A stretch of 64,000 nt of DNA from Brevundimonas sp. Its GTDB lineage: Bacteria > Pseudomonadota > Alphaproteobacteria > Caulobacterales > Caulobacteraceae. The notes beneath the pieces were generated by a model. The model made no database searches, was not told the origin of the DNA, and saw only the letters and a list, made by a program, of their open reading frames with translations. Positions 10,145-45,013 of the stretch are shown here, piece by piece; positions within the stretch are counted from its first letter, which is position 1; each line of letters starts with the position of its first letter. The DNA is taken from positions 1-64,000 of the forward strand of contig NZ_JACESB010000011.1 in the NCBI RefSeq assembly GCF_013912005.1, in the 5' to 3' direction. Position numbers and translations under genes: made by a program.

Positions 10145-10234
10145 GGACAGGTGGCCGAGTGGTTGAAGGCGCACGCCTGGAACGCGTGTATAGGGGAAAC
10201 TCTATCGAGGGTTCGAATCCCTCTCTGTCCGCCA
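10145..10234 (+). tRNA. tRNA-Ser (anticodon GGA)
   Basis: The sequence folds as a class II tRNA. The acceptor stem GGACAGG pairs with TCTGTCC (one G-T pair). The D arm lies in GGCCGAGTGG. The anticodon stem CACGC/GCGTG encloses the loop CTGGAAC, giving GGA. A long variable arm follows, then the T loop GGTTCGAATCC, discriminator G and an encoded CCA (10232-10234). The 3' end is the integration site of the island to its right. Confidence 0.95.
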
Positions 10235-10236
10235 CC
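10221..10236 (+). repeat. attL: 16-bp direct repeat at tRNA-Ser 3' end
   Basis: CTCTCTGTCCGCCACC covers the last bases of the tRNA plus two more. It is repeated exactly at 34230-34245, just beyond hsdM. With an integrase 146 bp to the right, it is read as the left attachment site; integration keeps the tRNA intact. Confidence 0.85.
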
Positions 10237-10245
10237 ACGCACTTT

Positions 10246-15906: not shown

Positions 15907-16860
15907 TCATAGGGCTTCGCCCTTCAGCAAGGCGTCATAGCCGACGTCGAGCCAGTGATCGCGCGCCTCGCAGTGCGTCGCCCAGAACGCCCGCAGACCG
16001 TCGATCAGGCCGGCGCGCGCGAACGGCAGATCGAGGAACTCCAGCTGGTCGTACTGCGGGACCGGCACGGCGCCGGCGCGCCAAGACCCGTAGAGCACGC
16101 CGGCCTGCAACACCTGGCGCACGGCCAGCAGGATGCGTCCGGCGCGGTCGACCTCGTTGAAGGCCAAGCCGCTCTTGGCCTTGTCGACCTGGCCGCGCGA
16201 GAAGGCGTCGGCGGCGTGGGCGATGGTCTTATGCCGCAACTTGCGGATGGCGGCGAACACCTCGTCGTTCAGGGCCGCGTCGAGCCGCTCCAGAAGCGCC
16301 TTCGAGATCCGGTCCTCCGGCGAGCGCTGATCTGGCGCAACGCCGCTGAGGCGGTCGAACTGCCTATGCATCAGCTCAGCCTTCCCCCAGTCGTCCTGGC
16401 CGCCACCGCCCTGCCAGAAGGCGGCCTCGCCTTCCGAGACCTTGGCGAGCTGGGCCTGAATCTCGGCGTCGCGGACCGGCGCATAGTCGTAAGGAACGCC
16501 TTCAAGACCGATGAAGTTTGCGCGGGTCAGCAGCTCGTGGTGGGCGATGATGTCGTCGAGCAAGCGCCGGAGCGAGATCACGCCCTTCTTCGGCTGTTTC
16601 GGGTCGGAGTATTCGACGAGCTTCGAGATCCCGAGCACCTGGCTCGCCACATAGCCTTGGTCGAGGAACTGGGCGAGGATCGGCGCCACAGCCGCCGAGG
16701 GCCCCGCCGCGTCGGTGTCCTTGCGCGCCTCGTTAAAGGTGCGGAACACAGCGTCCTGCCACATCAACTGGCTGAGCTGGCCGTTGATCGAATGGACTGG
16801 GTCGCCATCCAGCCAGTCGAGCCAGCGCGCGTGGGCGGCGCGGTAATCCTCAAGGCTCAT
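15907..16860 (-). CDS. AbiU2-like HEPN domain protein (predicted RNase)
   Basis: This is a 317-aa mostly helical protein. RKLRHKTIAHA at about 206-216 gives an R-x5-H motif (Arg209 and His215) in a long helix, as in AbiU2-type HEPN domains. HEPN proteins with an intact R-x4-6-H motif are commonly metal-independent RNases that act as toxins or abortive-infection effectors. The start overlaps the KAP NTPase stop by 4 bases (ATGA), so the two are translationally coupled and probably act together. The HEPN call rests on one motif and helical content. Confidence 0.6.
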   Translation of the reverse strand: MSLEDYRAAHARWLDWLDGDPVHSINGQLSQLMWQDAVFRTFNEARKDTDAAGPSAAVAPILAQFLDQGYVASQVLGISKLVEYSDPKQPKKGVISLRRLLDDIIAHHELLTRANFIGLEGVPYDYAPVRDAEIQAQLAKVSEGEAAFWQGGGGQDDWGKAELMHRQFDRLSGVAPDQRSPEDRISKALLERLDAALNDEVFAAIRKLRHKTIAHAADAFSRGQVDKAKSGLAFNEVDRAGRILLAVRQVLQAGVLYGSWRAGAVPVPQYDQLEFLDLPFARAGLIDGLRAFWATHCEARDHWLDVGYDALLKGEAL

Positions 16861-19145
16861 GCCGGCTTGGCCTTAGACGACCTAGGCTTGGCGGACGATT
16901 TCCGCGCGCGCGGGGCCGCCGGCGTGCCGCTGGCCGTTCCGTCCTTCGCCGCCGCCCGTAGGCCGTCCCGCAGCGCCACGATGCGTGCCGTCTCGTCCGG
17001 GTCAAGGCCAGGGGCCGCCAGGAACTTCTCACAAGCGGCCAGTAGCGTTTCCGGGTCGTAGAAGTCGGGATCGGCAAGGCCGCGGAAGAACCACACGTCG
17101 CGCCCGGCGTCCGAGACCGAGCGGGCGAGGATGCCCTTGGCCACCCGAGCAAGAGCGTGCGCGTTGGCGTTGACGGTGCGGGCGAGCCAGGCCTTCGCCG
17201 TCGCCGCGTCGCCCAACGTCGTCCAGGTCAGCATGATGTCCCAGTAGTAGGGAGCGTCGGCCAACCGCCCGTCCTGTTCCGCCTCGATCGCCGCCAGGGC
17301 GCGTCGGCCCAGCGTCTTCAGGGCCCGCTTGTCGATGACGTCGCCCACCTCCGAGCCCTCGGCCGGGAGGAGGCCGCCTTCGCGGGCCCGCCAAACGTAG
17401 AGCGTGGCCAGAACCTCGGCTGGGGTGTCGTCGCCAGTCGCCTCAAGGAGAATCCGGCCGGCAGTCTTGGGGTCCCAACCGGAAAGGATCTGGCGCAGCA
17501 GGTAGTGCATGCTGACGCCTGGCGGGAAAAGGGTGCCGCCGCTGCGCTCCTGGGCCTGGATGAAGGCGGCCTTCTGGACGAAGGCCTGCAGCATGGCCCG
17601 GCCGGAGGTCAGTCCGCCGCGCGGGACCTGGCGGTACTGCAGCTCGTCGACATAGTCACCGACCAGCGACTGGCCGCGGGCGTCGACCATCGCGATGGCC
17701 TTGGCCAGCGCCCGGGTTTGCACCGCTAGATCGTCGGGCGCGGCGACGGCGGCGTCGATCAGCGCCTTGGGGACCACTTGATCGGAGGGAAACAGGGCGA
17801 AGTAGGCGTCGTAGCCCTTCGGCGAGCCGACCCCGCGGCGGTTCACGGTCTCGGCCCAGATCTCCCCGAACTCAAAGCGGTCATCCTCGCGCAACAGCTT
17901 GGCGCGCGACGGAAAGAGCGCGCTGAGCAGCTCGACGACGTCATTTTGCCGGGAGGGCGGCAGGCTCTCCCGAAACGCAGCACCGCAGGCCTTCTTGTCC
18001 TCATCGGAGGTGTAGCCGGGGCTGTCGATGAGGAAGTCCCGGTTGGCGCGCACCCAGTCGAAGACCTTCGGCTCGAATAGGCGCAGCCCCTCCATGGCAA
18101 CGACATCGCCGGCGTCGACCTCGGTCGCCAGCGGCGGCCAGGCGAAGCGCAAGGCGTTTGTAAGGCGGACGATGTCGCGCGGGCTCTGAATCCAGCGATG
18201 GAAGCCATGGAAGACGATCTCGCGCCAGCGGGCGCTCGGCTTCACGTGGGAGAGCACGAAGGCCATCTCGCGATCGACACGGCGAAGGAGCGCCGACCGG
18301 CCGGCGTGCGGCAGCTCCACCTCATGCTGGATGATCTTCTCGGTGAAGGTCGGCTCGCCGCTTTGGCGCTGATCGCCCTCGCCGAGCGCCCTCCAGACGA
18401 TGCGACGATCGTAGGCCAGGACATAGACGATGTTCGGCAGCTGGCCGACCGACTTCACCATCTGCATGATCGCCCGGACCTCCGCGGGCTCCAGGCGGTC
18501 GATATCGTCGATGAAAACCACGAAGCGGCGCCCGCTCTTCTCTAGCCGCTTGACGAGGTCGTCGTAGGCCGCCTGCAGAGTGGGCTCTCCCAGCCAGGCG
18601 TCGATGGTCTGCTCCATCGCCGACTTGACCGCCGCGCCGCCGATGCGGATGCCCACCGCCTCGGGCGGGTGGGCCGTCGCGGCCAGGGTGACCGCGGCCT
18701 TCACGGCGGGATCGATCGTCGCCTTGGCGGTCTTGTGCGCCACTTTGCGCACCTTGCGGACGGTCTCGCCGCCGTCCTTCAGCGCTTCGGCGAGCACGCG
18801 GAAATAGGCGCTGATCAGGTCCTGATGGCCGGAGAACATCCAGGGGGAGAAGCGCACCATCTCGACCGCGCGGGCCGGTTGGGCGCGGTTTTTGGCCTCC
18901 AGGAAGTGGGCGATGAAGTTGAGCGCCGTGGTCTTGCCCGAGCCCCAGGCGCCGTGCAGGCCGATGACATAGCCTTTCGGGGCGGAGAGCTCCCAGAGCA
19001 CGTCGGCCAGGCGCTGGGCGAACGGCCGATAGCCGAAGTCGTCTTGGGTCCAAGGGTCCTGTCGCGGGGAGTCGTCGGCGAAGCTGAAGCCCTCCAAGGC
19101 CGCATTCGTCTCGTCCTCCGCCAAATCGCCCTCCCGGTCCGCCAT
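16857..19145 (-). CDS. KAP family P-loop NTPase
   Basis: This is a 762-aa KAP-type NTPase. Walker A is GAWGSGKT at 65-72, the KAP signature RFSPWMFSGH is at about 98-107 and Walker B VVFIDDIDRL is at 209-218. KAP NTPases are STAND-related and recur in phage defence (PifA group), where they may sense infection and trigger an effector. Most of the C-terminal half is helical and may be the sensor. The C-terminus is basic and Ala/Lys/Pro-rich (ARKSSAKPRSSKAKPA). It overlaps the HEPN gene by 4 bp and is divergent, with a 71-bp gap, from the TPR-HEPN gene. Confidence 0.88.
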   Translation of the reverse strand: MADREGDLAEDETNAALEGFSFADDSPRQDPWTQDDFGYRPFAQRLADVLWELSAPKGYVIGLHGAWGSGKTTALNFIAHFLEAKNRAQPARAVEMVRFSPWMFSGHQDLISAYFRVLAEALKDGGETVRKVRKVAHKTAKATIDPAVKAAVTLAATAHPPEAVGIRIGGAAVKSAMEQTIDAWLGEPTLQAAYDDLVKRLEKSGRRFVVFIDDIDRLEPAEVRAIMQMVKSVGQLPNIVYVLAYDRRIVWRALGEGDQRQSGEPTFTEKIIQHEVELPHAGRSALLRRVDREMAFVLSHVKPSARWREIVFHGFHRWIQSPRDIVRLTNALRFAWPPLATEVDAGDVVAMEGLRLFEPKVFDWVRANRDFLIDSPGYTSDEDKKACGAAFRESLPPSRQNDVVELLSALFPSRAKLLREDDRFEFGEIWAETVNRRGVGSPKGYDAYFALFPSDQVVPKALIDAAVAAPDDLAVQTRALAKAIAMVDARGQSLVGDYVDELQYRQVPRGGLTSGRAMLQAFVQKAAFIQAQERSGGTLFPPGVSMHYLLRQILSGWDPKTAGRILLEATGDDTPAEVLATLYVWRAREGGLLPAEGSEVGDVIDKRALKTLGRRALAAIEAEQDGRLADAPYYWDIMLTWTTLGDAATAKAWLARTVNANAHALARVAKGILARSVSDAGRDVWFFRGLADPDFYDPETLLAACEKFLAAPGLDPDETARIVALRDGLRAAAKDGTASGTPAAPRARKSSAKPRSSKAKPA

Positions 19146-19216: not shown

Positions 19217-20800
19217 ATGGCCATACACCCGCTGCCCGAGACGATCGCCGACTTGATGGCGATGGACCTCGCCGCCTTGCCGCCGGAAGAGGCGTTGCAG
19301 GCGGCCTCGATCCTGATCGACCTCGGCGACGACGCCGGCGATGCGGCCGCGCTCGACCGGGCCGCCGGCGTCCTCGATTACCTGCAAGCCCGTGGTGGCC
19401 TGCCGCCGGGGATCGATTGCCGCATCCACTACTGCCGCGCCAACATCTGGAGCGCCCGACGCAGGATCACCGGCGAGACGCAAAGCTGGGTCTGGAAATC
19501 GGACCTCATCGACGCCGAGCTGCTCGAACTGCGGCGCACGGTGGCGCACGCCGCCTTCCCCGAACTCCCCCCGATCGCGCGGGCGCAGGCCCTCACCAAC
19601 CTCGGCAACGTCCTCAATCACATCGGCCGCTTCGTCGAGGCGATCGAGGCGTGGGATCGGGCCTTGGCCGGTGTCCCGAACTTCGGTATGGCCAACGGCA
19701 ACCGCGGCCTTGGGCTGATCCATTATGCCAGCGGGCTCTACGACCCCGGCCATCGCGGCGTCCTGGTGCTCGCGGCGCGGCACGCGCTCGAACGCACGAC
19801 CGACCCCGACGTGCTGTGGGAGAGCCCCGGCCTCGAGCCCGCCCAGGCCCACTTCGCCCAACGCGCGGCCGAGATCGACGCCCACTTCGATGTTCCAGCG
19901 ATGTCGGCCGGGTTCGACCTCAACGGCCATTCGCTCGGCCGTGGCCGGCGCGAACGCGACTACCGCCGCTGGTGTCTCAACAACCGCCTGTTCCTCAACC
20001 CCCTGAACGATGTCGGTCCTTACGCCATCGCCGCTAACGACGTCATGACCCTGCCGTCGCTTACCGTCCGGTTCGAGGACGGGCCAAGTCCGCCCCCGGT
20101 GATCCACTACTTCAACGTCCTGAAGCAGGAATACGCGAGCGCCCGCTACGCGCTTTTTGAGGGTCTGACGTCCGAGGGCGTCCATTTCTCGGACCGCGAG
20201 GTGCTGCTCTACGACACCCTCGACTTCCCGGCCTTCGGCCACGGCGTCGAGCGCCTGAAGACCGCCTTCCGTAACGCCTATTCCCTGCTCGACAAGACCG
20301 GCTTCCTGCTGAACGCCTACCTGGGTCTCGGCCATGGCGAGCGGCAGGTCAGCTTCAGAAACCTGTGGTTCGAGACGCCAAAGGCCCGAGCTCTGCACCC
20401 CAAGTTCGACGGCGCCGCCAACTGGCCGCTCCGCGGCTTGTTCTGGCTGGCGAAGGACATCTACGAGGACACCTTCCGCAAAGTCACCGAGCCGGACGCC
20501 CAGGCCCTCTATGAGCTGCGCAACCACCTTGAGCACAAGTTCGTCGGCGTGCACGACGACCAGCTGATGGCGGCTTCCATCTGCCCACTGCCCTCGCCCC
20601 CACTGGGGGTCTTCGACATCACCGCCACCGACCTCGCCGCCAAGACCCTTCGGCAACTGAAGTTGGCCCGGGCGGCCCTCACCTACCTTGCCATGGGCGT
20701 TTTCGCCGAGGAGCGCCGCCGCGAAGCCGAGAGCGGTGGCGGCCTCACCATGCCGATGTCGCTCTTCACGTGGAAGGACGCCTGGAAGCGGCGCGACTGA
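19217..20800 (+). CDS. TPR + LA2681-type HEPN domain protein
   Basis: This is a 527-aa protein. The N-terminal half has TPR-like helical repeats (for example ALTNLGNVLNHIGRFVEAI at about 130-150). The C-terminal half fits the LA2681 HEPN family, with ELRNHLEHKFVG giving R-x4-H at about 434-439. HEPN domains of this kind are predicted RNases. The ATG is 71 bp from the divergent KAP gene, so both could share one regulatory region and form a single system. The end (MSLFTWKDAW) looks intact. Confidence 0.75.
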   Translation: MAIHPLPETIADLMAMDLAALPPEEALQAASILIDLGDDAGDAAALDRAAGVLDYLQARGGLPPGIDCRIHYCRANIWSARRRITGETQSWVWKSDLIDAELLELRRTVAHAAFPELPPIARAQALTNLGNVLNHIGRFVEAIEAWDRALAGVPNFGMANGNRGLGLIHYASGLYDPGHRGVLVLAARHALERTTDPDVLWESPGLEPAQAHFAQRAAEIDAHFDVPAMSAGFDLNGHSLGRGRRERDYRRWCLNNRLFLNPLNDVGPYAIAANDVMTLPSLTVRFEDGPSPPPVIHYFNVLKQEYASARYALFEGLTSEGVHFSDREVLLYDTLDFPAFGHGVERLKTAFRNAYSLLDKTGFLLNAYLGLGHGERQVSFRNLWFETPKARALHPKFDGAANWPLRGLFWLAKDIYEDTFRKVTEPDAQALYELRNHLEHKFVGVHDDQLMAASICPLPSPPLGVFDITATDLAAKTLRQLKLARAALTYLAMGVFAEERRREAESGGGLTMPMSLFTWKDAWKRRD

Positions 20801-22005: not shown

Positions 22006-22656
22006 ATGAGCATTTGGGCGATCATAGACGAAATCGCTGCAGCCCTGCGGGCTGCCGAGGACGCGACGGTTGACCGCAAGGTTGACGGTCTGCTGTCAGC
22101 CTTGACGGAAACGCTTGCTGACGCGCTTCCTAACGCAAGCCAGGCGGTTCTGCGCGAGGGGGCGCAGGCAGCGCGGCGCGCCTTCGACGCCGTCAGAGAC
22201 GCTGAGACGGACTCCGCCGCCTTCGCGGCGGGACAGCTTGCCGCCGTGGCCGACGTTTTGGGTTTTGCGGCAGGGCGGGCGGCGGATGACGGGGCGTTGG
22301 CGATGGCGCAGCGAGCGCCTTATGCTTCCTTGCTGGCTGACCTTCGCGGAGGCGCACGCAGCAACCGGCAGCTTCGGCAATCGCTGGGGATCAAGTCGGA
22401 AGAGCACATGTGCCGGCTCCTGAAGGAGATGCGGGACGCCGACCTAGTTACGACCCAGCGGCGGGGACGCGAGGCCTACAATGCATTGACGCCGGTTGGT
22501 CGGTTGCTGGTCGAAACCCGGCTCGGCGTGGCCGAGCCGGCGCGCATCCCCCCGATCGTTGGCATGGGAAACCCATATCAGCTGACGGCTCTCCCGGTCG
22601 CCAATGATTGGGAGGACGGCAGTGCGCTGCCTCGCCTCGATGTCGGGACCGCCTGA
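22006..22656 (+). CDS. Winged-helix protein, first gene of ATPase-nitrilase cassette
   Basis: This is a 216-aa protein from the ATG at 22006; a GTG at 21991 is possible but lacks a better ribosome site. Residues 1-100 are Ala-rich helices. Residues about 106-170 form a winged helix (SNRQLRQSLGIKSEEHMCRL, then a wing around TTQRRGREAYNALTPVGR) of MarR/ArsR-like type. It may regulate the cassette or act as a DNA-binding sensor. Its stop overlaps the ATPase start (TGATG), so the three genes form one transcription unit. Confidence 0.75.
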   Translation: MSIWAIIDEIAAALRAAEDATVDRKVDGLLSALTETLADALPNASQAVLREGAQAARRAFDAVRDAETDSAAFAAGQLAAVADVLGFAAGRAADDGALAMAQRAPYASLLADLRGGARSNRQLRQSLGIKSEEHMCRLLKEMRDADLVTTQRRGREAYNALTPVGRLLVETRLGVAEPARIPPIVGMGNPYQLTALPVANDWEDGSALPRLDVGTA

Positions 22657-24890
22657 TGGCGGGCCGCGTCACCACCTTCTACTCCTTCAAGGGCGGGAAC
22701 GGGCGGAGCATGGCCATGGCCAATGTGGCTTGGGCCTTGGCCACGAATGGCGAGAAGGTGCTCGCCATTGATTGGGACCTCGAAGCGCCCGGCCTGCACC
22801 GGTACTTCCACCCCTTTTTGCGGGATCCGGAGCAGTCCCAAGCTCGCGGCTTGGTCGATCACCTGTGGAACTACGTCCATTACAGGACGCACGAGAAGAC
22901 GCGGCGGGACCAGCTTGCCGAACTGGCCGACGCTTCGGTGATCGTGCAGGAGCTGGAGCTGCCCTTGCGCAAGAGCAAAGGGCTTCTGCACTTCATTGGC
23001 GCTGGCCGGCAAGACGACGAGTATAGCGCCAAGGTCGGCGGCCTCGACTGGGCGACGTTCTACGGCCGCTTCGGCGGCGAGGCTTTTCTCAACCAAATGA
23101 TGGGTTGGGCGCGGTCGCGCTACACCCACATTCTCATCGACAGCCGCACCGGAGTGGCCGACACCGCAGGCGTGTGCACGACCCAGCTGCCTGACGGCCT
23201 TGTGCTTTTCCTAGTCTATAATCGCCAGAGCATCGACGGCACGGCGGCGGTCGCGAAATCGATCATGCGGACTCGGCGAGACCGAGATTTGGGCCCGATC
23301 GACATGCTGGTCTGTCCGTCCCGGGTCGAGGAGAGGGGCACGCTCGAGTCGGCGCGCCGCTATGCCGTCGGCAGACTCGCACCCGCACTGCAACGTCCGC
23401 GAAGTGTGTTAGCCCGCGAGCTGAGACGCAACGAGATCCGCCACTACCCCTGGTGCGCTTTCGAGGAGAAGCTGGCGGTCTTCGAGGACGAGCCTGACGA
23501 ACGCGGCTCCCTGCTGGACGCAATGCATGTCCTTGCAGGACGGTTGGGGCGCAACCAAAGGGTACGGTCATTCGAACCAGTGAAGATCGATCCGGAAACC
23601 ATCGCGCGCTATTGGCGCCGCGCTGCATTCGACGACCCGCGCCTGGCTGAGCTCGAGGAGCTGTCAACCTCGCCGGCGAGCGAGGTGGCGGCCAAACTCG
23701 CGCCTTGGCTTGAGGCGGCATTGGATCAACCCGAGGACCGCACGGATTGGCTGGCGAGCCTCGCTGAAGCCTGCGTGGAACGCTCGGGGTCCCTAGGGGA
23801 CGCCATGGACCCCGACACGGTCGCCTTCCTGAGCGACGCGGGGATGGAGCTCGCCCGCATCGTCTATGAGCGCGAAGGCCGCGAGTTCCGGATCCGGTTC
23901 TCTGCAATCCTTCAAAATCGTTCAGACTATCTGCAGCAGATCGGCAACCTGGATGAAGCGCTGGCAAGCGCAGAGGAAGCTGCATCCCTCTTGGGACGGG
24001 ACAAGACGGAGCTGGCGCAGTGGCGACATGTCCGAGCTCTGGAACGGGTGGCTGCATTACAAGACGCGATTGGCGCCAGCGAGGAGGCGCTTCGCACCTA
24101 TAGGGAGATGGTGACGCGATTTGACGGTCTTAGCCGCCGTGCATTGCCTTTGGGCGGCGAGCTCGAAGGGCTTCGCGCTCGGCGGCTGCTGGCTCAAGCC
24201 CTATTTGCGCGACGTGAGACCCCGGAGGCTCTCGCCGTCCTCGAGCCGGCCGTGCGCCGCCTGCCGGAACACGAGACGGTCACCCGCCTTCGCGACAGCG
24301 CGGAAATCGCCACTGTTCTGGGGCTCTACGCCGAGATTGCCATGGCGATCGATGTGGACCTGGGCCGCCGCGCGGTGATGATGGCGCGGGGGCGGATGGA
24401 TGCGATCAGTGAGACGCGCGGCGCGCGCGCCTCGCTCGAACGCCGCCTCGCTCTCGCCGAGGCTGAGGGCCTGCGTCGCACGGGCCGGCCGGACCAGGCG
24501 ATGTTGGCGCTCGAGGCTCTGGACGACGAAGGTCGCCGAACCTTGGCGGTGCTCGAGAGCCGCGCCGCGATCCTTCTCGATCTGGGGCGGGCCGATGAGG
24601 CCCAGACGTTGCTGTTCGAAGCCATCTCTCGCACATCCGGCACCCCCTCGAACACGGTCCTCGACCTGATCGAGCGCGCGGTTCGGGCCACCGGCGAACC
24701 GTTGCTTCTGATGGAGCTGGCGCTAGGCCAACGCGGCGCACGGCGCAGCGCCAGCGAGAGCGCCGAAGTCCTGAAACTGCTGGAGCGGGCCGCCGCGTCC
24801 CTTCCCGCTGGCCGGCGCCGGGTCGTTCAGACGCTCAAGCGCCTCTTGAGCGCCGATCCGCATGGCCGCGCGTCAGAACCGGACGCCTAG
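22656..24890 (+). CDS. MinD/ParA-like ATPase with Arg-type P-loop and TPR-like C-terminus
   Basis: This is a 744-aa protein from the ATG at 22656. Residues 12-18 (KGGNGRS) are a variant deviant-Walker P-loop in which the usual GK[ST] is GRS. DWDLEAPG at 39-46 and ILIDSRTGVAD near 165 are the other MinD/SIMIBI motifs. The N-terminal 300 residues are the ATPase. The rest (about 340-740) is helical with TPR-like repeats. This KGGxGR family is found in large multidomain ATPases, not in ordinary ParA partition systems. Coupled to the winged-helix gene before it and 2 bp from the nitrilase gene after it, it is probably the signalling core of the cassette. Confidence 0.82.
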   Translation: MAGRVTTFYSFKGGNGRSMAMANVAWALATNGEKVLAIDWDLEAPGLHRYFHPFLRDPEQSQARGLVDHLWNYVHYRTHEKTRRDQLAELADASVIVQELELPLRKSKGLLHFIGAGRQDDEYSAKVGGLDWATFYGRFGGEAFLNQMMGWARSRYTHILIDSRTGVADTAGVCTTQLPDGLVLFLVYNRQSIDGTAAVAKSIMRTRRDRDLGPIDMLVCPSRVEERGTLESARRYAVGRLAPALQRPRSVLARELRRNEIRHYPWCAFEEKLAVFEDEPDERGSLLDAMHVLAGRLGRNQRVRSFEPVKIDPETIARYWRRAAFDDPRLAELEELSTSPASEVAAKLAPWLEAALDQPEDRTDWLASLAEACVERSGSLGDAMDPDTVAFLSDAGMELARIVYEREGREFRIRFSAILQNRSDYLQQIGNLDEALASAEEAASLLGRDKTELAQWRHVRALERVAALQDAIGASEEALRTYREMVTRFDGLSRRALPLGGELEGLRARRLLAQALFARRETPEALAVLEPAVRRLPEHETVTRLRDSAEIATVLGLYAEIAMAIDVDLGRRAVMMARGRMDAISETRGARASLERRLALAEAEGLRRTGRPDQAMLALEALDDEGRRTLAVLESRAAILLDLGRADEAQTLLFEAISRTSGTPSNTVLDLIERAVRATGEPLLLMELALGQRGARRSASESAEVLKLLERAAASLPAGRRRVVQTLKRLLSADPHGRASEPDA

Positions 24891-24892
24891 TC

Positions 24893-26365
24893 GTGACACC
24901 CGGGGCCCTATTCGCCAAGCTTTGGATGCAGGTGAGTCCCCACGCGGGACCGATGGTCGCCGCGCCGTGGCCTGGCAAGGACGCCCGTGAATGCGCGACG
25001 CTCACCGACCTGCTCCGGAACGGGCGCGATGCGGACGTGCCCCCGGAGATCGAGATCTACCTTGAAGGGGGCAATCTTGGCTGCCCCTGCGATGCCGCGG
25101 CCGCCAATCTCGAGCAGCGTGCCTTCGTGGTGATGTGCGCCTTGGACGACGCCGCAATGGACATCCATCCGGCGATGCCCACTCGATTGGGCGGCGCCTC
25201 CGTCTCGGTCAATGCGATGCTGGCTCAGATGAAGCAGGCTCGCACGGCACGCGGAGAGTACGGCGAACATCAGGGGCGCCGAACCCTTCCCAAGGGCCGG
25301 CTCGCAGCTCGTCGTGAGACCCCGGAGGCGGTCGCCGCGAGCGGCGCCAATCTGGAAACCCAATTCGACTATCTGACCGTGCTCGAGCCCCTACCGGAGC
25401 GTTTCGTGGTCGAGATCGAGGTGGTGCCGCCGAGACGGAGCCCGTTGCCCAATCCGCCATCCCGGATCGGTCTCGCCCCAATCGCCGAAGACGCAGACGA
25501 TTTGGCGTTCACGGCGGCGGTCCGCCGTCAGCGGCCGTTCCTTGACGCCCAACCTCGCGATCCGCAACAGCTGCGGCTCAGGACCACCGCAGCGGTGGAG
25601 GCGCTTCTCGATCGCGGGGCGGATCTGATCGTGCTGCCTGAGCTGGCTATTCCCAAGGACGCGCCGAGTGCATTGGCCCTGGCGCTGCGCGCGCGCCCGC
25701 CGCAGGACGGGCTGATCGTTTGTGGAAGCGCGCTGACCGAGGACGTGAGCGAGAACGGACTGCATTTCAACGAGGCGGTCGTTCTGGACGCGCGCGGCCG
25801 TGTACTGCTTCGTCAGCGCAAGGTCCACCCATTCAACATGGGCGTACAGCGCATGAGAGACTGCGGCGTGCCGTTCGCCGCCGGATACGAGAACTCTCCG
25901 CATATGGAGGACATCGAGCCCCATAGCGTAGTTCGCATCTGCGACCTCCATGGAGCCGGTCGGCTCATGGTCTCCATCTGCGAAGACCTTGAGCAGGAGA
26001 CGCCCGGCGGCGTCGTTGCCCGAGCTGTTCGACCGGACTGGATGATCACGCCGGTGCTCGACGTCGGCCAGACTCTCGGCCGCTGGACCCACCAGCGCGC
26101 GATCGAGATCGCGCGGCGCACCGGGTCGCAGGTGGTGGTCAGCTGCAGCGCCACACTCACTGTTCGAGACAAAGGTTGGGCGAGCCTCGATAAGGCTCCG
26201 GCCGGCGGCCTCGGTCTCGGCCTTCTCTACGAGGGTGAGCGGCGAAGAGTGAGGATCGTGGACGCCTCGGAAGACACTTCGTCTCCGCGAGCCCTGGTCG
26301 TCGATTGGGACCCGGACAGCTGGAACGAGGATGAAGTCGGCGCACGGATGCCGCGTCGGCGTTGA
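24893..26365 (+). CDS. Nitrilase-fold (C-N hydrolase) protein with N-terminal extension
   Basis: This is a 490-aa protein from a GTG at 24893. Residues about 190-470 are a carbon-nitrogen hydrolase domain with the full E-K-C triad: Glu250 in VLPELAIP, Lys310 in RQRKVHPF and Cys363 in SICEDLEQ. Enzymes of this fold cleave amides or nitriles or transfer acyl groups. The first 180 residues are an unrecognised extension with a CPCD motif (about 64-67). It is the third gene of the cassette, 2 bp after the ATPase. The intact triad suggests it is the effector or a metabolite enzyme. I know no named defence system with this trio. Confidence 0.82.
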   Translation: MTPGALFAKLWMQVSPHAGPMVAAPWPGKDARECATLTDLLRNGRDADVPPEIEIYLEGGNLGCPCDAAAANLEQRAFVVMCALDDAAMDIHPAMPTRLGGASVSVNAMLAQMKQARTARGEYGEHQGRRTLPKGRLAARRETPEAVAASGANLETQFDYLTVLEPLPERFVVEIEVVPPRRSPLPNPPSRIGLAPIAEDADDLAFTAAVRRQRPFLDAQPRDPQQLRLRTTAAVEALLDRGADLIVLPELAIPKDAPSALALALRARPPQDGLIVCGSALTEDVSENGLHFNEAVVLDARGRVLLRQRKVHPFNMGVQRMRDCGVPFAAGYENSPHMEDIEPHSVVRICDLHGAGRLMVSICEDLEQETPGGVVARAVRPDWMITPVLDVGQTLGRWTHQRAIEIARRTGSQVVVSCSATLTVRDKGWASLDKAPAGGLGLGLLYEGERRRVRIVDASEDTSSPRALVVDWDPDSWNEDEVGARMPRRR

Positions 26366-26433: not shown

Positions 26434-26730
26434 TCAGAACACCCAGATCAGATCAGCTTCGATCCTGCGGGCCATCCCACTCGAGAACGTCCGTCGCTCG
26501 ACTAGGTCAAGCCGCGTTCCCAATGCATCTGCGATATCGAGGTATATCTGTCCCTGATCGAAGGCATCGAAGTCTGCGTCAGGCGCCAGACCAAAAGCCA
26601 CCTCGACATCCGAACCTACTGTCGCCTCGTCCCGGGCCACCGATCCGAACAGGTAGAGGTGGGACACGCCTTCCCTTCTCAGGGCCTGCTCCATGCTGCT
26701 GAGCTTCGCCAAGGCTTCATCGCGACGCAT
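26434..26730 (-). CDS. MNT-type nucleotidyltransferase, degenerate second Asp
   Basis: This is a 98-aa protein from the ATG at 26730; a start at 26745 would add five residues. It is a single MNT domain: GSVARDEATVGSDVEVAFG, with the third acidic site in TRLDLVER. The usual GSD-x-D is here GSDVE, so the second metal ligand is Glu instead of Asp. It may be weak or inactive. MNT proteins normally pair with HepT HEPN toxins, but no partner is adjacent. It is convergent with the nitrilase gene. Confidence 0.78.
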   Translation of the reverse strand: MRRDEALAKLSSMEQALRREGVSHLYLFGSVARDEATVGSDVEVAFGLAPDADFDAFDQGQIYLDIADALGTRLDLVERRTFSSGMARRIEADLIWVF

Positions 26731-26826
26731 GAAGAAATAGCCCATCTATCGCCGTCAATCGCAACCGCGGGACGCTGATTGCTCTGCAGGGTACCTGCCC
26801 GCCGCCGGCTGAACGCCATGCCCCTT

Positions 26827-29800
26827 TCAGCCCGCGCCACCCCGCGCCCTCAGCGCTTCATAAAGCTGCCCCGGCCCCAGCAGCGCGTCCTTCAGGCCGT
26901 CCTGTATCCTCGGCGACTCCAGCGCCTGTTTGCTCAGGCTGTTGTGCGCCACGAGGGCGTCCATGATGGCGTCGAGAAGCTCCTTGCCGAGGGTCGGGGA
27001 GCTGGCGAACTGGGCCTTGGTGTTGTTGCTGGCCTGCTGGATCAGCTCGTCGGATTCCAGCAGCTTTCCCTTGAGCACCTGGTTCACATAGACGAGCTGG
27101 TCGCTGTCCGTCGTGTCCGCGCCGAACAGGTCATTCACCCGCGCGATGATTTCGTCGAGGAGCGCCTTCTCCTTCTCGTGGATGCCGCCTGAGCCCGTCT
27201 CGGACATTCCCGGCAGCTTGGGCGCATCGCCCGCCGCATAGGTCAGGTCGCGCTTGCCCTCGTTCTTCAGGGTGTGGTGCGTCAGCTTGATGCCGGTCAG
27301 GTCGACGCCTTCCCGCTCGCGACCGAAGACCAGCAGCGGCAGCAGGCGGCGATAGAAGATCGCCCGCTTTTCGACGTCGGTGTTGCCGTAGTCGATGATC
27401 TGGCTGAGGAAGCTGTAGAGCCGCAGATAGGCGCCCATGTCGCTCTTGAAGAGCTCCAGCGCCCCCATGTGGTCGCGGGCGTCCGCTTCACCCTGGGCGT
27501 TGCCGCTGGCCGTCGCCGTCGTGAGAGCCTGTCGGGCTCCGTTGAAAGCCTTGAGGATACGATCCGCGACCGGCTCCAGTGCGGAGATCAGCTGCCCCTG
27601 CGTGGCCTTCGGATCGAGCTCGACCTTGACCACCCGCTCGACGTCGAAATCGTCGTAGTGGCCGGCGGCGTCCAGCTTGGCGCGCAGGTCGAAGATCAGG
27701 TTCGGGTCGGTCGCGCTCTCCAGCTCGGCCGTCTCGAAATAGGTCCGGAAGGCCGCGAGGACCTCCTCGGAGCTGTTCACGAAGTCGAGGATGTAGGTCG
27801 TGTCCTTGCCGAGGTGTGACCGGTTCAGGCGCGACAGGGTCTGCACGGCCTGGATGCCGGCGAGGCGGCGGTCGACGTACATGCCGCACAGTTTTGGCTG
27901 GTCGAAGCCGGTCTGGAATTTGTTGGCGACCAGCAGCAGGTGGAAGTCCGGGCCGTCGAAGGCCTCGCGGATATCCCGTCCCTTCAGGCCGGCGTTGAGC
28001 TCCTTGCTCGTCTCGGTGAAGGGCTCCGCGCCTGAGTCCTTGTCATTCACCTCACCCGAGAAGGCGACCAGGGTCCCGAGCCAATAGCCCTTCTCCTTGA
28101 TGTATTTCTGGATCGCCAGCTGCCAGCGCACGGCCTCGATCCGGCTGCCCAGCACCACCATCGCCTTGGCCTTGCCGTCCAGCAGCGGTTGGACGTTCTC
28201 GCGATAGTGTTCGACGACGATCTGGACCTTCTGGCTGATGTTCCAGGGGTGCAGCTGCACCCACTTCATGATCGCCTTGTTGGCGGCCGACTTCTCGACC
28301 TCCTTGTCGTCCCAGTCCTGGCCGTCGTGAGCGAGGCGGAAGGCCAGCTTGTAGGGGGTGTAGTTCTTCAGCACGTCGAGGATGAAACCCTCCTCGATCG
28401 CCTGGCGCATCGAATAGACGTGGAAGGGCGTCGGCAGGCCGTCGTCGCCCTTGCGCCCGAACAGCTCCATCGTCTTGGCCTTGGGCGTGGCGGTGAAGGC
28501 GACGTAGGTGATGCCCTTGTCGTCCGCGCGCCCGGCCATCTTGGCCGCGAGAATATCCTCGTTGGAGATCTCGCCCCCGTCGGCCAGTTCCGCGGCCTCG
28601 GCGGCCGACAGCATCTCCTTCAGCTTGGAGGCGGCCTCGCCCGTCTGGCTGCTGTGCGCCTCGTCGGCGATCACGGCGAAGGCCTTGCCCTCGGTGGCCG
28701 CCAGCTCCTGCACGGCCTCCAGCGCGAAGGGGAACGTCTGGATGGTGCAGACGATGATCTTCTTGCCGGCCGCCAGCGCCTTGGCCAGCTGTCCGCTCTT
28801 GGAGCCGCTCTCGCTCTTGATCGTCTCGACCACGCCGGTCGTTCGCTGGAAGTCGAACAGGGCCTCCTGCAGCTGGCTGTCGATGACGTTGCGGTCGGAC
28901 ACGACGATGACGCTGCTGAACAGCTTCCTGTCCTGGGCGTCGTGCAGCTCGGACAGGAAATGCGCCGACCAGGCGATGGAGTTGGTCTTACCCGACCCGG
29001 CCGAGTGCTGGATCAGGAAACGCCCGCCCGGACCCTCCTCCAGCACCTTGGCCGCCAGCTTCCGCGTCGCGTCCAGCTGATGATAGCGGGGGAAGATCAC
29101 GCCGGTGATCGCCTTCTTGGCGTCCCGCCGCGTGACCAGGAAACGCCCGAGGATCTCCAGCCAGCTGTCGCGCTGCCAGACCTGCTCCCACAGATAGGCG
29201 GTCGGGTGCCCGCCGGTCCCGATGGGGTTGCCCTTGCCGCCGTGGTCGCCCCGGTTGAACGGCAGGAAGCGCGTGGCCGGGCCTTCCAGCCGCGTCGTCA
29301 TCGCCACCTCGCGGTTGCTGACCGCGAAATGGACCAGCGCGCCGCCGGGGAAGGACAACAGGGGCTCGATCCCCTGCCCCTTGGGCTTCGGATTCCGGTC
29401 GAATTTGTACTGGTCGATGGCGTCCTGAAGACTCTGGGTGAAGTCGGTCTTCAGCTCGGCCGTCGCGACCGGGATGCCGTTCAGATAGAGGACCAGATCG
29501 AGGCAGTTCTCGTTGGCGGTCGAGTAGCGCACTTGCCGCACCACGCGCAGGCGGTTGGCCTGGTAGCGCGCCGTGATGTCGGGGTTCATGCCCATGGCCG
29601 GTTTGAACTGGGCCATCGCCAGCCGTCCCTTGGCGCCCACGATGTCCATTCCATTGCGCAGCACGTCCAGCACCCCGCGCTCGTCCAGCGACTTGCGCAG
29701 CCGGTCGGCGAGGACGGTCTCCGCATTGGCGCCGTGGGTCTTGGACAGGGCCTCCCAGGTCGCGGGCTGGGTCGCCTGAACCCAGGCGGTCAGGTCGGCG

Positions 29801-29919
29801 GGGAACAGGGCGCGGGCGCGATCGTGGCCGGCGGCGTCGCCGGGCGCATGCAGCCAGCCGTGGGCGGCGAGGTGCGCGCAGATCTCGTCCTCGAAGCTGA
29901 TCTCTTTGTGGACGCTCAT
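26827..29919 (-). CDS. hsdR: Type I restriction endonuclease subunit R (HsdR)
   Basis: This is a 1030-aa protein. The N-terminal nuclease domain (about 130-160) has LDLVLYLNGIPVATAELKTD, a PD-(D/E)xK site with Asp and ELK. The translocase has Walker A SAGSGKT at about 307-313 and DEAH-type ADEAHSSQTG near 417, followed by helicase motifs (VAFTATPKAKT; LNRSHLGKDTTYILDFVN). HsdR cuts DNA after ATP-driven translocation when the HsdMS site is unmodified. A GGGGGG ribosome site precedes the ATG. The gene starts 20 bp after the GIY-YIG gene and looks complete. Confidence 0.96.
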   Translation of the reverse strand: MSVHKEISFEDEICAHLAAHGWLHAPGDAAGHDRARALFPADLTAWVQATQPATWEALSKTHGANAETVLADRLRKSLDERGVLDVLRNGMDIVGAKGRLAMAQFKPAMGMNPDITARYQANRLRVVRQVRYSTANENCLDLVLYLNGIPVATAELKTDFTQSLQDAIDQYKFDRNPKPKGQGIEPLLSFPGGALVHFAVSNREVAMTTRLEGPATRFLPFNRGDHGGKGNPIGTGGHPTAYLWEQVWQRDSWLEILGRFLVTRRDAKKAITGVIFPRYHQLDATRKLAAKVLEEGPGGRFLIQHSAGSGKTNSIAWSAHFLSELHDAQDRKLFSSVIVVSDRNVIDSQLQEALFDFQRTTGVVETIKSESGSKSGQLAKALAAGKKIIVCTIQTFPFALEAVQELAATEGKAFAVIADEAHSSQTGEAASKLKEMLSAAEAAELADGGEISNEDILAAKMAGRADDKGITYVAFTATPKAKTMELFGRKGDDGLPTPFHVYSMRQAIEEGFILDVLKNYTPYKLAFRLAHDGQDWDDKEVEKSAANKAIMKWVQLHPWNISQKVQIVVEHYRENVQPLLDGKAKAMVVLGSRIEAVRWQLAIQKYIKEKGYWLGTLVAFSGEVNDKDSGAEPFTETSKELNAGLKGRDIREAFDGPDFHLLLVANKFQTGFDQPKLCGMYVDRRLAGIQAVQTLSRLNRSHLGKDTTYILDFVNSSEEVLAAFRTYFETAELESATDPNLIFDLRAKLDAAGHYDDFDVERVVKVELDPKATQGQLISALEPVADRILKAFNGARQALTTATASGNAQGEADARDHMGALELFKSDMGAYLRLYSFLSQIIDYGNTDVEKRAIFYRRLLPLLVFGREREGVDLTGIKLTHHTLKNEGKRDLTYAAGDAPKLPGMSETGSGGIHEKEKALLDEIIARVNDLFGADTTDSDQLVYVNQVLKGKLLESDELIQQASNNTKAQFASSPTLGKELLDAIMDALVAHNSLSKQALESPRIQDGLKDALLGPGQLYEALRARGGAG

Positions 29920-29939
29920 CGTTTCCCCCCGGCTCGCTG

Positions 29940-30836
29940 TCAGCCAGCCAGCTGTGCCGCTTCCCAGTCTTTGTAGGTCTGGCCGTCCGGCGTCTTCCAG
30001 GCCGTCGTCCCTTGGGCCTGCCGCCCGTAAACGATGGCAGCGGCGGCGCTTGGCGAACTAAACGCATAGTTCTCGGCGAAGACGCAGTGATCGCCGTTCA
30101 GAACCAGAACGCCGGAACGCCGCAGGTCGTCATGCAGACTAGCGTAGCCACTGGTCGCCTTCTCCTGACCTTCCCACGCGGCCCGCGCCTGTGACCCGGC
30201 CTGCACGACGAATTCGCCGTCCTCCAGAACGGCGACGGCCTTCAGCCCCTGCTTGGGATAGTCCAGTGTGAACCGGACGGCAGGCGTTGCGACGGGCGCG
30301 CTGGATGGGGCCGGGGCGGCGGGTCGTACATTCTGCACGAACATGTCGATGCGGACGGCCGGCAGGACCATGAAGAGGTAGTCGAGGAAGGCTTCCATGT
30401 TGGCCCGCGCCGACTCAGACAGCCCGGGACGCGGCGGCGTATTGCCGTTGTCCAGCGGCATGACGCCGACCTTGCGGGCCTCCTCGACCAGCCTGGATTC
30501 CAGGAATTTGGCGTGGGCCTTGTGCAAGTTGTTGGCGGCCGAGGTGACCAGCACGGCCGTCGTCCACCAGTCCTTGCCCGCCTCGTGGCTCCTCATGCGA
30601 GCGGCGATGTCCTCGCCCTCGCCGATATAGGCGAGCGGCTTTCCATCCCGCTCGCCCAGAAGCAGATAGACGCCGGTGAACGACGACTGCGGCCGGGCCA
30701 GCGCCTCCTTCAACCGGGTGCGCGGGGTGACAAGGACATGGCCGGTCCAGTTGAACACCTCAGCCGTCAGCATCCCATCGGGCCGGCCATCGATGAAATA
30801 CAGTTCAAGGGACCGACCCAGCACGCCAGCGCTCAT
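29940..30836 (-). CDS. GIY-YIG nuclease with DUF4357, inside the hsd operon
   Basis: This is a 298-aa protein. Residues about 50-130 are a GIY-YIG domain (GVYLLLGERDGKPLAYIGEG, then DIAARMRSHEAGKDWW). Residues about 225-295 are a DUF4357 module (SGYASLHDDL through VYGRQAQGTTAWKTPDGQ, then DWEAAQ). The start overlaps the hsdS stop by 4 bases, so it is co-expressed with the restriction system. The conserved Tyr and Arg suggest an active nuclease. It may add a second cleavage activity or control restriction. Confidence 0.85.
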   Translation of the reverse strand: MSAGVLGRSLELYFIDGRPDGMLTAEVFNWTGHVLVTPRTRLKEALARPQSSFTGVYLLLGERDGKPLAYIGEGEDIAARMRSHEAGKDWWTTAVLVTSAANNLHKAHAKFLESRLVEEARKVGVMPLDNGNTPPRPGLSESARANMEAFLDYLFMVLPAVRIDMFVQNVRPAAPAPSSAPVATPAVRFTLDYPKQGLKAVAVLEDGEFVVQAGSQARAAWEGQEKATSGYASLHDDLRRSGVLVLNGDHCVFAENYAFSSPSAAAAIVYGRQAQGTTAWKTPDGQTYKDWEAAQLAG

Positions 30837-32200
30837 GCCGCTTCCGCCTGTTCAGGGGCGAGACCACGCACGTCAATTTTGCCGGTGACGGCAGCGGAGA
30901 TCAGGGCGGCGCGGCGTTCCAGCAGAAGGGAGATTGCTTTTTCAGCTTCTGACTCCAGAGTCGAAAACTCCTGAAGTTTCGCATCAAGCCAGTTCAGGAT
31001 TGTCGCCTGCTCGCTGGGAGGCGGCACCGTCATCAGCAGATCGCCCACATCACCAAGACTCAGTTGAATTTTGGTGCCGCCATAGCCGCCCATTTCGAGC
31101 TGAGTTTTCCCGACACACGACAGAGTGACATAGGCGACCCACTTCGGAAGGAGCCGACCACCAGCTAGGCGCGCTAGAGCGACGTGCTGACTCACAAATG
31201 CTGTCTCCAGTTCCGACGGAACGACGGCGACCGATCCAAGGAAAGCGGTGATAGAAAACAGTACATCGCCTGACTGGACACGAGTTCTTTCGCCTTCGGA
31301 CCCAAGCGGGACAGCTACTCTTTGTATGTCTGCAAGGTCCAAATCAACGCGATCTCGCGTCAGATTTCCGATGCGAAGGAAGAGTGCTCCCTCATCCGCG
31401 TAGTGCTCTGCCCAGCCTCGCGATCCGCTGGTAAGAAACACCAGATTGCGCTTCAGCGGTACAACGTCCCAATGCGCCGGCACCTCGCCGAGCCATCCGA
31501 CGCCGGAGTCCTTCATCGGGTCGGCAGGGTCGAGGCCTTTGGTGACGGCGTGGGAGATGACGGCCTGCCGCTTCTCCTTCAGCAGTTCGATCAGTCGCCG
31601 CTGCGCCTCCACCAGCGCATCGATCTTGCCGGTCTCGCGGTCGAGGAAGGCGGCGACGGCGAGCTGTTCGGATTTCGGCGGGCAACAGACGAGTGTCGCG
31701 GCCAAGGGCTCCAGGTTCAGCGATCTGAAGGTCGCGCCGCCAATACTGCTTTCCCACTGGCAGACGGACGCCGAGGCACGAAGGGCCCAAAAAACGTAAC
31801 GCGAGGATGCGTCGTCGTTAACCGCAATTCTCGCCGTCCCTTGGGTCAGGTTCGCACCATTAAGAGACGACGGAACCACCATCACTTTTCCGAAGCTTGG
31901 CCCGATAGAGCAGACGATGTCGCCAGCCCTCACCGTACTTCGACGATACGCTGCGGCGATGTCCTCCGACGTCCTTAGCAGGTTGGTTTCGTCCCTGACG
32001 CCGGACTCTTCTGACATGTCAGCCGGGCGGATGTAAGGAACGCCGCCATCGATGTCGGGGCCTGCCTGGACTATCCCGTAGGTGATTGCACGGTACGGAT
32101 CGACTAAGCGGCTCAGTTTCAGAACTTTCCAGTGTGCTGGCACCTCGCCCAGCCACTCGACTCCGCTGTCCCGATAGCTCCCGTACTTCGGCACGCTCAC
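30833..32200 (-). CDS. hsdS: Type I restriction specificity subunit S (HsdS)
   Basis: This is a 455-aa specificity subunit with two target-recognition halves. Each half begins with a near-repeat ([14 protein letters not shown] near residue 11 and [14 protein letters not shown] near 231) and ends with a coiled-coil spacer ([20 protein letters not shown] and its C-terminal counterpart around [20 protein letters not shown]). It sets the DNA sequence recognised by HsdM and HsdR. It overlaps hsdM and the GIY-YIG gene by 4 bp each. The first half is A+T-richer than its surroundings, as expected for an exchanged recognition domain. Confidence 0.95.
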
Positions 32201-34032
32201 GCCGCCAGCCCCTCGATCATCGCCTTAATCCGGTCGGTGACGGCCAGCAGGTCGGCGTCGATCTCGGCCAGGTCACGCGGCGGTTCGAACACATAGAAGT
32301 GCCGGTTGAACGGGATTTCGTAGCCGACCTTCGTCTTGCTCTCATCAATCCAGGCGTCGGGGGCGTGGGGCAGGACCTCGCGCCGAAAATAGGTTTCGAC
32401 GTCCTCAGCGAGCGGCACATTCTCAGTGTCGCGTAGGGCGCTGTCTGGCATCAGCTTGCCCTTGGCCTTGCCTTTCTGGCCCACCACCGGCCGCCCCTGA
32501 TCATCCAGCAGGGGCCGTTCGACCGTGATGGTGCGATAGCCGAAGGCTTCGTTGTCGAAGATGCGAGACAGCGGCTGCAGCCTGACCTTCCCGCCCTCGG
32601 GCGCGGCGGGCGGGGTCTCACCCTCGACCACCACTTCGCGGGCGACGACCTTGCCGTCGGCGTCGGTGACCGTCGCCAGCTGGGCCGCCTCGAAGCCGCC
32701 GAACAGGCGCGTCACGACAGCAATGTCGTCGTCGGACATCTCGCGCCGCTTGGAGCCAAGGCTCTTGCGCATCTTCTTCCAGAAGACGCTGGCGTCGATC
32801 AGCTGCAGCTTGCCTTTGCGGTGCGCCGGCTTCCGGTTCGAGACGATCCAGACATAGGTGGCGATGCCGGTGTTGTAGAACATGTCGGTCGGAAGGGCGA
32901 CGATGGCCTCGACCAGATCGCTCTCCAGCAGATAGCGCCGGATCTCGCTCTCGCCCGAGCCCGCGCCGCCCGTGAACAGGGGCGAGCCGTTCAGGACGAT
33001 GCCGAACCGGCAGCCGCCTTCCGACGCCGGCCGCATCTTCGACAGCAGGTGCATCAGGAACAGCAGCGAACCGTCGGACACCCGCGGCAAACCCGGCCCG
33101 AATCGGCCGTTGAAGCCCTGTTGCTCGTGCTCCTGACGGACGACCTTCTCGACCTTCTTCCACTCCACGCCGAACGGGGGATTGGACAGCATGTAGTCGA
33201 ACTTGCGGGTCGGGTGGCCGTCGTCGGACAGGGTGTTGCCCGGCGTGATGTTGGCGACGTCCTGACCCTTGATCAGCATGTCCGCCTTGCAGATGGCGTA
33301 GGACTCGTCGTTCAGCTCCTGGCCGAACATGGTCAGGCGCGCGGTCGGGTTCAGACCCGCCAGATAGTCCTCGGCCACCGACAGCATGCCGCCGGTGCCG
33401 GCGGTCGGGTCATAGATGGTGCGGACCACGCTGGGCTTCGACAGCAGGTCATCGTCCTCGACGAACAACAGCGACACCATCAGCTTGATGACCTCGCGCG
33501 GGGTGAAATGCTCCCCCGCCGTCTCGTTCGAGAGTTCCGCGAACCGCCGGATCAGCTCCTCGAAGGCGAGGCCCATCTGGTGGTTGTCGACCGAGCCGGG
33601 GTGCAGATCGATCCGGGCGAATTTCTCGGCCACCTGGTACAGCAGGCCCGCCTTGGCCAGGCGGTCGATCTGGGTCGCGAACTCGAACCGCTCGAAGATG
33701 TCGCGAACTGCCGGCGAGAAGGCCTGGATGTAGGCATACAGGTTCTGGGCGATGTGGTCGGCGTCGCCGATCAGCTTCGCCATGTCCATCGGCGAGGTAT
33801 TGTAGAAACTCTGCCCCGCCGCGCGAAGCAGGAACGGCTCGGGGTTCAGGCCTTCGCCCGACCGCTTCTCGAACTCCGCCAGCACCGCGGGCTTGGTCGC
33901 CGCCAGCACGCAGTCCAGCCGGCGCAGAACCGTGAACGGCAGGATCACCTTGCCGTAGTCCGACTGCCTGTAATCGCCCCTGAGCAGATCGGCGACCGAC
34001 CAGATAAAGGCCGACATGGACTGATGATTCAT
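32197..34032 (-). CDS. hsdM: Type I DNA methyltransferase subunit M (HsdM)
   Basis: This is a 611-aa N6-adenine methyltransferase. HsdM_N lies at about 8-140 ([20 protein letters not shown]). The SAM-binding motif is near DPTAGTGGM at about 210 and the catalytic NPPFG is near 285. TRD-like and C-terminal helical parts follow. With HsdS it protects host DNA; with HsdR it allows restriction. A GGGGAG ribosome site precedes the ATG. It is the first gene of the leftward hsd operon and starts about 200 bp inside attR. Confidence 0.96.
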
Positions 34033-34434
34033 GCGTTACTCCCCGAGCAATCAGGGATAGCACGTGCACGGCGTCTGCGCGCAAGGCGAGGCGATATTCG
34101 AGAAGCGGACGTGGGCGAGCCCGCGGCCTTCGACCCTTTGATGGTCGGCGGGGGCGGAAACGGGGGTAGGATTGCCTTGGAAATCCTAACTAGTTGATTT
34201 CAGATACTCAATTGCCACCCAAGCGCGGACTCTCTGTCCGCCACCGGCCTCTGGCAGGTACCGCCACTTGCCGCGGTCTGGGTATGCCTGCCGGAGCCGC
34301 GGCGCGCGAGGCCCTCATCCTTTCGAAGGGCTCGCGCAAGCCCCCGATCCCGCGCCATCGCACGCTTGCCCCGGCCGCGAGTGTATGGCGGGGCCGGCGC
34401 GCAGGCCGAGGCCGTCGCCACGGCGCGAGTCCGG
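34033..34434. other. Right island border region, no gene
   Basis: About 400 bp between hsdM and the SDR gene. It contains the hsd promoter region and the right attachment repeat (34230-34245). I see no coding frame with support. Confidence 0.6.
34230..34245 (+). repeat. attR: 16-bp direct repeat of tRNA-Ser 3' end
   Basis: An exact copy of 10221-10236, without further tRNA sequence around it. It marks the right border of the island. Confidence 0.85.
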
Positions 34435-44873: not shown

Positions 44874-44994
44874 GCGACGGCCCTCCGGGGCGCAGGTCGC
44901 ACCCCCCTGGAAATCACCACATCGTCCTCCCGGTTATTGTTGGTTTATGGCGTGGTTCCGGCACGAGACCAGCAAGTCGCCCCGCCGTCAATCT

Positions 44995-45013
44995 TCACTC
45001 TCACGCAAGTGAG
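44995..45013. promoter_or_regulatory. Palindrome upstream of MFS-esterase unit
   Basis: CTCAC, 4 bases, GTGAG is perfectly symmetrical and is extended by TCACT to the left. It resembles the site at 41049-41068. It lies 120 bp upstream of the MFS start, in the gap beyond the serine hydrolase gene. Confidence 0.4.

Follow-up and report, generated by a model that had tools for sequence, protein, structure and literature searches.

An island integrated in the Brevundimonas sp. window (the whole 64,000-nucleotide stretch of DNA that was analysed) carries three tightly coupled genes, encoding a winged-helix (wHTH) protein, a KGGxGR ATPase with a long TPR-like tail and a nitrilase-superfamily enzyme. 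We interpret this trio, with moderate confidence, as an undescribed mobile conflict system, probably an abortive anti-phage one, in which an NLR-like switch would gate a nitrilase effector. The gene set, its conservation, the catalytic residues, its transfer as a unit and the receptor-type fusions of its relatives support this interpretation, and from them we infer sensing, activation, a substrate and an anti-phage outcome for the trio. All the domain families involved are known, and their combination is undescribed as far as our literature searches reach.

Organization of the operon and its products

The three genes lie on the + strand at 22006–22656, 22656–24890 and 24893–26365, as tightly coupled as the preliminary description had claimed: the wHTH stop TGA (22654–22656) overlaps the ATPase ATG (22656) as TGATG, and 2 bp separate the ATPase stop at 24890 from the nitrilase GTG start at 24893. 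An earlier in-frame GTG for the wHTH gene occurs at 21991. The wHTH protein (P0001, 216 aa) comprises an N-terminal part of ~100 residues and an ArsR/MarR-type wHTH at residues ~107–172; taken alone it scored below the Pfam and NCBIfam cut-offs, and the profile of its family (A7) matched the ArsR structures 6o8k and 2lkp at 3e-8.

The second gene encodes a SIMIBI-type (MinD/ParA-like) ATPase (P0002, 744 aa) whose P-loop reads KGGNGRS at residues 12–18. This motif had been singled out as an oddity; it is real, but an Arg P-loop defines the known family NF047398 (AAA_KGGVGR, 'KGGVGR-motif variant AAA ATPase'), against which the protein scored 147.4 bits (NCBIfam cut-off 90), and as a family-wide trait it was rejected as a novelty. 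In PADLOC the ATPase matched PDC-M28B, a candidate component, at 3.6e-25, and no further PDC-M28 component appeared among the listed matches of P0001, P0003 and 10 island proteins. Each of the 29 sequences in the ATPase tree has KGGxGR, even where K would have been allowed by the pattern; this uniformity is partly circular, as the sequences had mostly been gathered as KGGVGR-family matches. The Arg P-loop may abolish hydrolysis. As to the TPR-like tail, strong TPRs were found in relatives, whereas the TPR matches of the window copy were weak and below Pfam cut-offs. Pfam detected no NACHT domain in the window ATPase; NACHT is present in its relatives L195 and L196.

Across the class, the KGGxGR domain scored above the cut-off in 7 of 385 genomes, at eight loci: two are the system described here, four adjoin a second P-loop gene by eye, one adjoins an MqsA-like HTH gene, and the neighbours of the last (G363) are unassigned. 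At L190, L191, L192 and L194 a KGGVGR ATPase gene adjoins a second P-loop (GARGxGKxFW) gene, forming another recurrent two-gene unit, and on a Rhizobium beringeri plasmid (L151, 4715–8256) a TIR-like protein is encoded beside a KGGTGR ATPase whose tail is formylglycine-enzyme-like (domains assigned by eye).

The third product (P0003, 490 aa, GTG start), by its sequence a member of the nitrilase superfamily and a predicted enzyme, combines a family N-terminal domain with a CN_hydrolase domain that passed Pfam PF00795 (34.2 bits, gathering cut-off 23.2). The Glu250-Lys310-Cys363 triad noted earlier is complete, and the equivalents of Glu250, Lys310, Glu339 and Cys363 were invariant in all 50 aligned nitrilases (40/40 chosen homologues and 10/10 added ones). 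The N-terminal extension, previously called unknown, exists but is common to alphaproteobacterial and actinobacterial homologues, with an LF..L motif. The PADLOC RTasNitrilase model matched residues 230–366 at 1.5e-5, more weakly than the general CN_hydrolase model (2.3e-8). With P0003 as the only query no relative was found in 50,697 phage records, and pattern scans found none in viral contigs, so that a phage-borne system was rejected.

The host island and its other genes

The claim that the trio sits in an integrated island was borne out by a tyrosine integrase (10382–11641, +; PF22022, PF13356, PF00589) beside tRNA-Ser(gga) (10145–10234, +), the integration site, where homology to four genus relatives (G147, G886, G884 and G903) ends at 10235–10238. 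The integrase beside the tRNA and the synteny broken in relatives are both signs of mobile cargo. Of 31 genus genomes, 29 (the window's own among them, and G906 in two pieces) matched the left flank with tRNA-Ser almost in full, the right flank found a good match in just one other genome (G899), and the homology of G884 picks up again only at 42161–51215 of the window; flank comparison showed no undisturbed empty site among the 31 genomes. Sixteen bp at the 3' end of the tRNA (10221–10236) recur at 34230–34245, just past hsdM, and may mark the right end of the island. Support for this end is modest, since 16 of 300 random 96-mers drawn from the left part of the window likewise had a match of at least 16 bp in the rest.

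Upstream of the trio, genes for an AbiU2-type HEPN protein (15907–16860, −; PF18734, 2.5e-6) and a PifA-like KAP NTPase (16857–19145, −; PADLOC PifA 1.8e-90, PF07693) overlap by 4 bp and likely form a two-gene exclusion/defence pair. An LA2681-like HEPN protein with an N-terminal TPR match (19217–20800, +; PF18733, 1.6e-64) is encoded between the PifA-like gene and the trio. Downstream, PADLOC and Pfam identified an MNT-type nucleotidyltransferase (26434–26745, −), a PDC-S09 candidate, and a type I restriction-modification operon (R, DUF4357/PDC-S14 protein, S, M; 26827–34032, −), in which the DUF4357/PDC-S14 gene (29940–30836, −) sits between hsdR and hsdS.

The three-gene unit is mobile and patchily distributed

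By combining a scan of genome contigs (59 loci) with plasmid and family matches, we found the complete order wHTH-ATPase-nitrilase (clade 1) at eight distinct loci: the window, L012, L013, L016 (the same contig as L030), L022 (with a nitrilase gene identical to that of L023), L024, L025 and L033, each pair being counted once. Besides the window, the hosts are three Rhizobium, Azospirillum SYSU D00513, Methylobacterium brachiatum, B. bullata and another Brevundimonas. Additional to these eight, G183 has the trio divided over two contigs, with the same TPR repeat at an end of both. Intergenic gaps ranged from −4 to +40 bp in all six loci measured. On a conjugative Rhizobium plasmid (L013, 3299–7996) an IS21 element splits the ATPase gene while the wHTH and nitrilase genes remain open, so the unit tolerates losing the ATPase. 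The nitrilase of G040 has a transposase ORF, IS256-type by eye, immediately upstream. Within the bacterial family the distribution is patchy, with matches below 1e-20 in 3 of 149 genomes (the window, G097 and G040).

A nitrilase tree of 31 chosen rows placed the trio in one clade (support 94/97) and the window copy with those of Methylobacterium, Azospirillum and Rhizobium (100/99), apart from two other Brevundimonas copies. The ATPase tree gave the same order for the seven shared clade-1 members; its support for clade 1 plus G183 was low (60/24). Since the two trees agree within clade 1 and the window copy clusters with Rhizobium and not Brevundimonas, the three genes transfer horizontally as a unit. 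As the nitrilase tree is unrooted, two separate gains of the ATPase are possible, as is its loss. Between two Rhizobium copies dN/dS was 0.139 for the nitrilase, 0.118 for the wHTH gene and 0.116 for the C part of the ATPase.

Defence-type neighbours were present at the window, L012, L016 and L033, where the last three have SIR2/ThsA-like, KAP, FRG, DUF3800, SoFic and PDC-S31 proteins (10 proteins chosen by eye). Plasmid or metabolic neighbours were seen at L013, L022, L024 and L025: L013 and L022 adjoin plasmid rep genes, and L024 and L025 had no clear defence neighbour by eye. PADLOC assigned 50 proteins from the surroundings of seven clade-1 loci (58 listed neighbours less 10 that were dropped, plus two annotated ones) to 49 families, and the 25 families shown have one or two members each. 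Because these families are small and several are probably cross-hits (Cas12-type, Csa3/Csx1-type), we claim no enrichment of defence families.

A second gene order outside the class

A nitrilase profile run against 398 genomes of the phylum matched in 40 and returned 30 loci. A KGGxGR motif lay near the nitrilase in 12 of the 30 (nitrilase frames of 329–527 aa), compared with 0 of the 14 that have ordinary frames of 272–334 aa; the other four were the window, whose ATPase motif fell outside the fetched stretch, G176, with a nitrilase-wHTH pair, G792 and a contig end (G671). Ten further matching genomes had no locus returned, and one of these, G614, was scanned as a wider stretch (L210); neither L210 nor L209, the wider stretch around G590 (one of the 14), contained the motif. 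On these counts (12/30 vs 0/14), together with the two gene orders, we rejected an ordinary nitrilase standing beside an ATPase by chance.

All 12 loci (clade 2) have the order nitrilase-wHTH-ATPase with a homologous wHTH-type middle gene (12/12), and all 12 genomes are listed in the phylum of the window but outside its class. The middle gene of L199, tested singly, was MarR-type by Pfam, and the L202 nitrilase reads in two frames. Profile comparison between the two clades gave 92% for the wHTH protein, 99.5% for the nitrilase (residues 77–421) and 99.8% for the ATPase domain, ATPase homology being claimed only to residue ~225. Among nine clade-2 ATPases scanned, seven had TPRs and two (L195 and L196) had an Mrr nuclease, NACHT and pentapeptide repeats, with WD40 repeats in addition in L195. 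The sensor repeats thus vary while the nitrilase and wHTH protein stay constant, as expected of a receptor reading different cues. By eye, clade-2 neighbours were mostly housekeeping genes that varied between loci.

Nitrilase-wHTH pairs without the ATPase

The KGGxGR motif was absent from all 55 further nitrilase loci that were scanned (L014, L015 and the genome-contig loci without the trio), so the nitrilase can exist without the ATPase. The wHTH profile matched, mostly weakly (1e-3 to 1e-7), in 16 of 17 Azospirillum-type and 32 of 36 actinobacterial (Actinomadura) nitrilase loci, and no ATPase match was found in any of these 17 and 36. In one Azospirillum group the pair is flanked, in conserved synteny, by an alcohol dehydrogenase/cyclase pair on one side and an MFS/cyo cluster on the other, and in Actinomadura the wHTH gene is divergent from the nitrilase; for neither were defence neighbours recognized by eye. 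Conserved ordinary surroundings, which the preliminary description had set against a conflict system, thus count in part against the pair branch, but not against the three-gene branch.

A third group, on plasmids of Bradyrhizobium, Sphingobium, Rhizorhabdus and Methylobacterium aquaticum (13 records, 7 fetched), has a nitrilase with a wHTH-type gene in 7/7 fetched records (three by annotation, four by eye), a small third gene in 6/7 and no KGGxGR motif in any of the seven. In the operons of L219 (6566–9410), L220, L221, L222, L223 and L225 the nitrilase and wHTH-type genes are accompanied by one for a small protein of ~150 aa, those of L220 and L225 differing by eye from those of L219, L221, L222 and L223. 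In L224 (7760–9379) the wHTH partner is extended to 539 aa, the extra part resembling, by eye, a PAS/histidine-kinase-type sensor. As such ATPase-less pairs recur, nitrilase and wHTH protein form the core that stays constant, and the ATPase is one partner among several.

Two more distant nitrilases were also noted: one at L198 (6225–9443, −), with a KAP NTPase gene next to it, transposase-like genes around and no KGGxGR motif, and a mycobacterial one at L058 (2389–8735), near a DUF5131 gene and a divergent gene for a 490-aa protein without a Pfam family.

Comparison with known systems

A PADLOC search, a check proposed in the preliminary description, matched no complete named system to the trio; such an assignment was rejected, since the matches of the ATPase were confined to candidate classes and that of the nitrilase to a portion of a DRT model. 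We recognized no description of this gene set in open-licence PMC full text, a coverage outside which most subscription papers and preprints fall. Of the earlier suggestion of an undescribed trio, the conserved mobile three-gene unit holds, whereas the KGGxGR ATPase and the idea of a nitrilase effector were already known.

The only defence precedents for a nitrilase within the literature found are the RT-nitrilases, DRT1 and a UG5 relative. DRT1 is reported to have a nitrilase effector with a catalytic triad/tetrad, to act in abortive defence and to have its activity tied to oligomer state (PMC13275509); in that 2026 paper nitrilases are described as not common in antiphage systems, and the DRT1 substrate is posed as a question. 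The UG5 RT-nitrilase comes with a TM protein (PMC9122126). The nitrilase-fold domain is common to these proteins (DRT1/class 3 UG RTs, UG5) and the trio; they unite RT and nitrilase in a single protein, whereas the trio has no RT and a separate ATPase-TPR and wHTH protein. Pfam found no RT in P0001–P0003 at E values up to 1, and the lack of an RT domain rules out membership of DRT1.

The window ATPase shares its P-loop domain, above the NCBIfam cut-off, with NF047398/PDC-M28B proteins, which elsewhere adjoin TIR, caspase/SAV_2336, an MqsA-type HTH or a second P-loop ATPase, in contrast to the wHTH protein and nitrilase found here. Bacterial NACHT (bNACHT) proteins, related to NLRs and reported to defend against phage, combine a switch NTPase with C-terminal repeats (PMC12169576), as does the trio ATPase, and two relatives of the latter are themselves KGGVGR-Mrr-NACHT-repeat proteins; the window ATPase differs in giving no NACHT match and in having its putative effector in trans. 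The three-part logic of the trio also resembles that of the MoxR-vWA ternary conflict systems, which include MinD/ParA-like domains predicted to be inactive (PMC7159879). Among P0001–P0003 and 10 island proteins Pfam found no MoxR ATPase or vWA protein, and a nitrilase is unmentioned in the main text of that paper.

Discussion

We propose that the C-terminal repeats of the KGGxGR ATPase (TPRs in the window copy, pentapeptide repeats or WD40 together with NACHT in its relatives) would sense an infection cue, upon which the altered SIMIBI P-loop domain would shift its nucleotide state or assembly. This change might in turn release or assemble the nitrilase, whose Cys-Glu-Lys site would hydrolyse an amide- or nitrile-containing metabolite, and the cell would halt. 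The wHTH protein, the constant partner of the nitrilase, might act as an autoregulator or adaptor. By analogy with DRT1, the trio nitrilase may also be controlled through its oligomer state (PMC13275509).

The same loci could instead reflect a regulated metabolic or stress module, in which the wHTH protein controls an amidase/nitrilase and some mobile copies gained the KGGxGR ATPase-TPR as a signal input, with no role in defence. The wide occurrence of the pair alone, in the 16/17 Azospirillum-type and 32/36 actinobacterial loci that have no ATPase, speaks for such a module, as do the synteny with alcohol dehydrogenase and cyo genes in the Azospirillum group and the divergent wHTH gene in Actinomadura. 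We nevertheless consider it unlikely for the trio, given that several copies of the trio are plasmid-borne or adjoin integrases, with defence-type neighbours, that NACHT, Mrr and WD40 fusions are a receptor and not a metabolic architecture, and that the distribution is patchy (3/149 genomes of the family).

The location of some copies also raises the question of a plasmid- or island-stabilization (addiction) module, with the nitrilase as toxin and the wHTH protein and ParA-like ATPase as its control: the trio lies ~0.4 kb from an annotated repC in L013 and ~1.3 kb from a repC-like ORF (by eye) in L022, and in the window it is part of an integrated island. Three large genes with sensor repeats would be atypical of such a module, however, and both the 55 loci in which the nitrilase persists without the ATPase and the IS21-split ATPase of L013, with wHTH and nitrilase open, argue against it, making it quite improbable. 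Least of all do we expect a DRT1-like nitrilase system whose activating oligomer is supplied by another polymerase. In its favour are the nitrilase effector common to DRT1 and the trio and the RTasNitrilase match at 1.5e-5, but that match is weaker than the one to CN_hydrolase, the trio has no RT domain, and Pfam showed none for the 10 island proteins scanned.

Beyond the window, the conflict system that we favour may belong to a widespread NLR-like immune class, to which we give an even chance, in which a constant nitrilase-wHTH pair is combined with interchangeable switches: KGGxGR-TPR, KGGxGR-Mrr-NACHT-pentapeptide/WD40, the small third protein of the Bradyrhizobium, Sphingobium and Rhizorhabdus plasmids, or a wHTH protein enlarged by a big additional domain. 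If the proposed function is correct, nitrilase chemistry would serve phage defence in a second way, without an RT, and an RT-free nitrilase operon with an NLR-like switch would make this chemistry a more general immune effector. With enzyme and switch encoded separately, it would also offer a cleaner system for finding the metabolite that is destroyed.
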